Positions 1,297 through 29,471 of a DNA stretch of 36,785 bases are shown in pieces (the stretch's first letter is position 1; every line of letters begins with the position of its first letter). Made by a program: the position numbers and the translations under genes. Under the pieces are notes generated by a model, which did no database searches, was not told where the DNA came from, and saw nothing but the letters and a program-made list of their open reading frames with translations. The stretch spans positions 1 through 36,785 of the forward strand of contig MFRL01000094.1 of the NCBI GenBank assembly GCA_001784565.1, written 5' to 3'. Source of the stretch: Candidatus Melainabacteria bacterium GWF2_37_15 (GTDB lineage: Bacteria; Cyanobacteriota; Vampirovibrionia; Gastranaerophilales; UBA9971).

Positions 1297-1569
1297 CAAT
1301 GTCGTCAACTTAAGAAAAAAAATTAAAAAATTGTAATATTTTCTGTCAGTAGGCTGTGGCGTTGTAATAGTTAATTTTATAAAATCCAAGTTGTCCTCGG
1401 CGTTAAAAAAAATTTAAAAAGGGGGGAAACTGGCTGCGCAGCGGCCAGTTTCCCCCCTAAAATTAACTATTACGTCAAAGCTAACCTGAAAGGAAAACAA
1501 AAATTGTGTCCTGCGCCGCTGCTTTAAAAAAATATACAGACATATTTATATACTAAGTTGACGACATTG
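1297..1569. mobile_element. MITE-like non-autonomous transposon, copy 1 (273 bp)
   Basis: The element is bounded by 16-bp perfect terminal inverted repeats, CAATGTCGTCAACTTA at 1297-1312 and its complement at 1554-1569. It is flanked by a 10-bp direct repeat, GGCTTCGCCA (1287-1296 and 1570-1579). Removing element plus one repeat restores a hairpin with 17-bp arms (one mismatch) and loop TTC, so it jumped into a palindrome. Inside lie a nested 16-bp inverted repeat (GTAATAGTTAATTTTA, 1364-1379 / 1458-1473) and a central hairpin (1421-1457). There is no transposase gene. A nearly identical inverted copy lies at 29159-29419. The ends and duplication length resemble the IS231 group of the IS4 family from memory. 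Confidence 0.85.
1421..1457. repeat. Central hairpin of MITE copy 1
   Basis: GGGGGGAAACTGGC (1421-1434) pairs with GCCAGTTTCCCCCC (1444-1457) around a 9-base loop. It is the innermost of three concentric inverted repeats in the element. In copy 2 the same hairpin survives with compensating changes (perfect 15-bp stem, loop TGC), so the fold appears to be kept. Confidence 0.8.
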
Positions 1570-4965: not shown

Positions 4966-5047
4966 ATTCATATGAATGGAGTAGGGGCAGACACACAGGT
5001 CTGCCCCTACAATTTTATTTATGATTAGCGGTGCGAAATAGCGCACC
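4966..5047. repeat. Cluster of three intergenic palindromes
   Basis: Three adjacent palindromes fill the gap between two genes: ATTCATATGAAT (4966-4977), a perfect 12-bp stem GTAGGGGCAGAC / GTCTGCCCCTAC with a 6-base loop (4981-5010), and GGTGCG / CGCACC around AAATAG (5030-5047). None has a T-run. The middle one is of the GTAGGGGC...GCCCCTAC type that I remember as a dispersed intergenic palindrome in many genomes. They may be REP-like repeats or protect the 3' end of the mRNA. Confidence 0.65.
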
Positions 5048-29117: not shown

Positions 29118-29135
29118 GGTGGGCTTTAGCCCACC
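29118..29135. repeat. Perfect 18-bp palindromic hairpin next to MITE copy 2
   Basis: GGTGGGCTTTAGCCCACC folds as an 8-bp stem with a 2-base loop. The unit following it, at 29145-29160, is the same hairpin in opposite orientation (GGTGGGCTAAAGCCC...) that has been split by the element at 29159-29419. So two inverted copies of this palindrome stood here before the insertion. Confidence 0.8.
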
Positions 29136-29158
29136 AAAAGTGCTGGTGGGCTAAAGCC

Positions 29159-29419
29159 CAATGTCGTCAACTTAGTATATAAATATGTCTGTATATTTTT
29201 TTAAAGCAGCGGCACAGGACACAATTTTTGTTTTCCTTTCAGGTTAGCTTTGACGTAATAGTTAATTTTAGGGGGGAAACTGGCCGCTGCGCGGCCAGTT
29301 TCCCCTTTTTTAACGCCGAGGACAACTTGGATTTTATAAAATTAACTATTACAACGCCACAGCCTACTGACAGAAAATATTACAATTTTTTAATTTTTTT
29401 TCTTAAGTTGACGACATTG
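29159..29419. mobile_element. MITE-like non-autonomous transposon, copy 2 (261 bp)
   Basis: This is the inverted copy of the element at 1297-1569. It has the same 16-bp terminal inverted repeats (CAATGTCGTCAACTTA) and a 10-bp direct repeat GGCTAAAGCC at 29149-29158 and 29420-29429. Removing element plus one repeat restores the perfect hairpin GGTGGGCTAAAGCCCACC. The nested 16-bp inverted repeat is at 29255-29270 / 29337-29352, and a perfect 15-bp central stem (loop TGC) at 29273-29305. It differs from copy 1 mainly by a 12-base length change beside the central hairpin. No transposase is encoded. Different duplications prove two separate insertions. Confidence 0.87.
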
Positions 29420-29471
29420 GGCTAAAGCCCACCCTATTTTCTATTTTCTATCATATATTGCAACTGTTACA

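Follow-up and report, generated by a model that had tools for sequence, protein, structure and literature searches.

Structure of the element and its copies

The window, that is the whole 36,785-nucleotide stretch of Candidatus Melainabacteria bacterium GWF2_37_15 that was analyzed, contains a non-coding element of 273 bp without a transposase gene at positions 1297-1569 of the forward strand. The element is bounded by 16-bp terminal inverted repeats, CAATGTCGTCAACTTA at 1297-1312 on the forward strand and its reverse complement at 1554-1569, which match at 16/16 positions. The left repeat continues with AGAAAAAA, as it does in a longer insertion sequence (IS). A 10-bp target duplication, GGCTTCGCCA, lies on both sides (1287-1296 and 1570-1579). 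These repeats and the duplication had been reported in the initial annotation of the locus and proved to be exact. The whole element folds into a single long fold-back (folding z = -10). Its removal restores the target CTTTGGGGTAGGGTGGC-TTC-GCCACCCCACCCCAAAG, which forms the annotated hairpin with 17-bp arms, one mismatch and a TTC loop; the left arm is at 1273-1289, but the right arm had to be shifted from 1577-1593 to 1576-1592.

A second copy at 29159-29419 is 261 bp long, lies in reverse orientation and is 95% identical to copy 1. As had been claimed, it behaves like the first copy: it is flanked by a 10-bp duplication, GGCTAAAGCC, at 29149-29158 and 29420-29429, and interrupts a palindrome, the restored target being GGTGGGC-TAAA-GCCCACC. 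The two copies noted earlier are thus both real, but they are not the only ones. A third intact copy with one base difference was located at C63:18145-18417, where the duplication GGGTTTTGCC is found within TAGCGTGGG-TTTTG-CCCACACTA. With one mismatch allowed, the 2.27-Mb draft genome contains 24 occurrences of the 16-mer end, and about 14 insertions with these ends are present. A search for the element in 59 relatives yielded short low-scoring matches only.

The interior core of copy 1, with approximate limits at 1358-1532 on the forward strand, matches some 15 other loci that lack these IS ends, e.g. L008-L021. This indicates that an older dispersed repeat with strong folding was captured between IS4-type ends and now forms the interior. 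Several of the core loci outside the element have a common border sequence like TTGCAATCAATGCATAACTT, and the central hairpin of the core, located at 1420-1458 with 18-bp arms, is conserved among the dispersed loci. No Rfam family matched the window at gathering scores; weak sub-threshold matches for the element and the core loci were taken as chance.

Assignment to the IS4 subgroup

The ends were compared with the subgroup signatures in table 1 of PMC2266710. The signature of the IS4 subgroup is -AATR--------WTW----, and IS231 ends are required to start with CAT (PMC2266710). The element end CAATGTCGTCAACTTAAG has AATG at positions 2-5 and TTA at positions 14-16, in full agreement with the IS4 subgroup. 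It begins with CAA and deviates from the IS231 start at base 3, which rules out IS231 membership. Of the affiliation proposed in the initial annotation, the IS4 family, the non-autonomous nature and the 10-bp duplications stand, whereas IS231 has to be replaced by the IS4 subgroup.

The nearest named ends found are those of IS1675 (CAATGTCATTAAGTTAAG). An exact scan of GTDB genomes with the 18-base end recovered, among the matches listed, Clostridia, Bacteroidota, Chlamydiae, Desulfobulbales and other groups. From other genomes 18 two-ended elements with duplications of 9-11 bp, mostly 10 bp, were extracted, the selection being made by ends alone. A full-length IS with the same ends, for which a search had been recommended, was found twice in other genomes: L118 (1451 bp) and L134 (1420 bp) encode single-ORF transposases that match DDE_Tnp_1 and NCBIfam's transpos_IS4_1 and contain the Y2R3E6K (YREK) motif. 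The lengths of both lie in the range of the IS4 subgroup (1400-1650 bp). The direct repeats of 10-13 bp in that subgroup include the 10 bp found at three copies in the genome itself and exactly in three pairs of contig ends. The YREK DDE transposase was seen in L118 and L134; in the genome itself it is represented by a probable C-terminal fragment only. Because the same-ended transposases share only ~19-31% identity with those of IS4, IS1675 and ISPa1635, they form a distant lineage.

The element is short, lacks a transposase, carries the ends of a coexisting IS and is present in several copies with duplications, as is typical of a MITE or mobile insertion cassette. That a complete IS coexists with it is inferred from contig ends. 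The MITE itself is new, whereas both its kind and its style of targeting are known.

A putative autonomous partner

Twelve of the 24 16-mer ends face contig ends, and the interior there is unlike that of the small element. An exact 10-bp duplication is common to the contig-end pairs C5/C36, C31/C97 and C59/C95, from each of which a single hairpin can be rebuilt; the same applies to C6/C96, with one mismatch. The right end at C31 reads IPVRKNRKFERKKKTRSNKYPKCKRRAI-stop. This is a basic, transposase-like C-terminus with an R..R...R pattern like that conserved in aligned C-termini of IS4-family transposases. This is most simply read as about five to seven copies of a longer, same-ended IS at which assembly stopped, and such copies also offer an explanation for the 12 contig breaks. 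An autonomous partner is therefore very probably present in this genome.

The earlier statement that no transposase is present is correct for the assembled genome, in which no complete transposase gene of this IS was found. However, since 12 contigs break inside the longer same-ended IS and C31 provides a transposase-like C-terminus, the missing gene is probably due to an assembly gap. When the L118 transposase was used as query against the genome itself and 29 related genomes, nothing was detected in the former and two weak matches in the latter. Matches to PF01609 on C9, C76 and C16 were rejected as the transposase source, as matching ends were absent from the stretches read. Two solo 16-mer ends, C83:11758 (L075) and C33:4327 (L076), have no recognizable partner end and are probably decayed copies. 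The one on C83 is a lone left end beside chromosomal genes and lies outside the twelve contig-end cases.

Landing sites of copies 1 and 2

The palindrome split by copy 1 is hairpin A of a twin hairpin, the abutting hairpin B being intact at 1242-1272 (match of covariance model R1 at 1243-1299). In 1.57 Mb of covered sequence, 20 intact twins were collected, each consisting of two palindromes with 3-nt loops that abut within 0-2 nt. The outer ends of hairpin A read TTTT...AAAA, e.g. at L243:16719-16784, L269:15897-15964 and 1242-1592 of the window. Together the 20 twins contain 636 stem pairs with 4 mismatches, and their arms are ~49% identical among copies. As the twins were picked for complementarity, covariation counts are partly built in, but the abutment and the number of twins are not built in by this selection. 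For the alignment the arms were trimmed to equal length and a few junction bases were removed.

The covariance model detected roughly 35-40 twin loci in the genome, whereas its matches in 39 relatives were all weaker. No twins turned up when limited parts of seven relatives, too little sequence to be decisive, were scanned for hairpins. The twins have no common stem sequence, no linked transposase was identified for them, and no direct precedent was found in the literature. This family of landing hairpins looks new, and such genome-specific, near-perfect twins pose the question of how the arms diverge yet stay complementary. At C29:28614-28895 (L006), the flanks of an element are two half hairpins, a left one of type A and a right one of type B, and show no matching duplication; this site is probably the outcome of recombination after one twin had received two insertions. 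A further repeated hairpin (GGGGCAGAC...GTCTGCCCC) occurs at 4980-5010 of the window and outside it at L292:6532-6556.

The landing site of copy 2 is a REPIN (GGTGGGCTTTAGCCCACC / GGTGGGCTAAAGCCCACC), one half of which is split by the element. The intact REP GGTGGGCTTTAGCCCACC is located at 29118-29135, and the second REP begins at 29145-29158 and continues beyond the insertion at 29430-29433. A matching uninterrupted REPIN at C67:11984-12037 adjoins a Y1 transposase (RAYT) gene, on the opposite side of which a REP of the same family is positioned. By paralogy, the C67 REPIN can be regarded as a natural empty site for copy 2. Two Y1 (RAYT-like) genes are present, C67:12106-12444 (L265, L301) and C71:1418-1774 (L300), and the REP palindromes differ between them. 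Insertion inside a REP palindrome, as in REP-targeting ISs, was found for copy 2 and not for all copies.

Palindromes as targets

Hairpins centred on the duplication were scored against random positions. The restored hairpin of copy 1 reaches p = 0.0001 when compared with 20,000 positions drawn at random from this genome. Dyads were found in 19 of the 24 flanking 10-mers in the genome (5.4% expected); as both ends of one insertion have a common duplication, these 24 flanks represent roughly 16-17 independent events, and a binomial value calculated on the flanks overstates the significance. Seven of the eight reconstructable sites in the genome itself are hairpins at p ~0.03 or below (binomial 6e-9), and 11 of the 18 same-ended elements in other genomes lie in hairpins at p < 0.05 (binomial 1e-10). 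The other seven (L104, L116, L122, L123, L126, L138, L139) are not clearly palindromic, and some of their end pairings are doubtful. The staggered cut enters the stem ~3 bp below the apex on either side, and the loop of 3-5 nt occupies the middle. The joins are thus at the hairpin apex, in accordance with the insertion point in the loop region given in the initial annotation. The suggested preference for GGG-N5-CCC was not recovered: the targets have no one common sequence, and dyad symmetry is what the sites have in common across genomes. The idea of palindromes as safe landing sites stays a suggestion, since the intergenic position may simply reflect where palindromes are located.

The same behavior is known from related elements. 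Palindromic sites were found for three of four copies of IS4 read on four E. coli plasmids, and IS1675 is inserted in GGGTATACCC and GAGTATACCC. The IS4-family member ISRm22 targets REPs (PMC1525189), and a striking conservation of the target arms has been described for the IS4 subgroup (PMC2266710). Palindrome targeting is therefore a trait of the group and no discovery made here. The contribution of the present data is that it is replicated for one family of IS ends in several phyla with differing target sequences, so that recognition of symmetry versus sequence by an IS4-type transposase becomes testable.

The best-surviving alternative, which has a real though clearly minor chance of being correct, is that the transposase recognizes a short sequence motif such as GGC-N3-GCC, which happens to occur in palindromes, symmetry and shape having no role. 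The targets in the genome itself do have a common GGC/GCC look, and for IS231A, a member of the same family, a target consensus and DNA bending are reported in titles cited in PMC2266710. However, the targets of same-ended elements elsewhere (CCTTGAAAGG, CTCCGAGAGG, GCGTCTTCGC, CTTGTGTAAAG) differ in sequence while keeping the dyad. Target arms reach 19 bp, past the duplication, and random GC-rich 10-mers are no more dyadic than others.

A terminator-targeting IS, with ordinary intrinsic terminators as its landing hairpins, is an unlikely alternative. Some targets in other genomes are terminator-like, e.g. CCCCCAGCctaGCTGGGGGTTTT with one IS4 copy, and TTTT follows hairpin B on one strand, which leaves some room for a terminator role. 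In hairpin A of this genome, however, the stem is preceded by T and followed by A whichever strand is read. Of the 19 twins for which a gene was called on either side, 6 lie between divergent genes, as does the site of copy 1, and the twins show no orientation bias relative to genes. These flanks and the gene context disfavor the twins as simple intrinsic terminators.

Survivorship, i.e. random insertion after which only intergenic copies persist, the palindromes being intergenic, is more improbable still. It would agree with the position of copies 1 and 2 and nearly all examined twins between predicted genes. However, although the twins account for about 0.1% of the genome, they harbor at least 2 of the ~14 insertion events (p = 1.3e-4). 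Survivorship does not predict joining at the hairpin apex, and the plasmid copies of IS4 show the same palindrome pattern. Finally, that the palindromes are products of the element, by fold-back insertion or inverted duplication, can practically be dismissed: in most cases the element does lie between two arms formed by its flanks, and it is itself a fold-back, but an empty REPIN matching the site of copy 2 exists at C67, twenty or more intact twins lack the element, and the 10-bp duplication differs in length from the arms.

Proposed mechanism

The most probable reading, to which we assign a probability of roughly 0.87, is that 1297-1569 is a MITE mobilized in trans by a same-ended IS of the IS4 subgroup that was broken out of the assembly, with a captured repeat as its interior and a 10-bp stagger on a dyad target at the apex of GC-rich palindromes. 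It draws on what was read from the sequences: the ends, the duplications, the palindromic targets, the empty REPIN and the same-ended transposase family in other genomes. The IS in the same genome would supply the transposase in trans. This DDE/YREK enzyme would bind the CAATGTCGTCAACTTA ends, excise the element by cut-and-paste and insert it through cuts staggered by 10 bp around the centre of a dyad-symmetric target, preferentially at the apex of GC-rich palindromes such as REPs and twin hairpins. Mobilization in trans, the cut-and-paste chemistry and a recognition of symmetry or hairpin shape over base sequence are deduced from these features. A broader and tentative proposal, which we consider somewhat less probable than its opposite, is that target choice by IS4-subgroup transposases depends on dyad symmetry or on an extruded hairpin, not on base sequence, and that an undescribed family of twin hairpins seeds this genome with recurrent landing pads.

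Comparison with known systems

Among the known systems the IS4 subgroup is the closest, as the ends of the element fit its signature, the 10-bp duplications lie within 10-13 bp and the same-ended ISs encode a DDE_Tnp_1/YREK transposase. IS4 and IS1675 resemble the element also in being located in palindromes. IS1675 and ISPa1635 are IS4-like and presumably belong with the IS4 subgroup. The difference from IS4, IS1675 and ISPa1635 lies in the transposase, with the low identity of the same-ended proteins and the C-terminal fragment seen in the genome itself. With IS231 the element has in common duplications in the range of 10-12 bp and the AA and TAA positions of the ends, but the third base of the end is A instead of T. 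The mobile insertion cassettes of the IS231 subgroup are likewise non-autonomous cassettes between IS ends. IS231 itself occurs almost exclusively in the Bacillus cereus group (PMC2266710).

Like ISRm22 and other REP-targeting ISs (PMC1525189), the element is an IS4-family insertion inside palindromic REPs in the case of copy 2 in its REPIN, but the targets described here come from several unrelated palindrome families and not from one REP family. In comparison with REPIN/RAYT systems (PMC3116915, PMC2817692), the MITE itself is no REPIN and the twins differ by the lack of a common stem sequence; the likeness is that the two Y1 genes of the host are flanked by REP-like palindromes, and that copy 2 targets one such REPIN.
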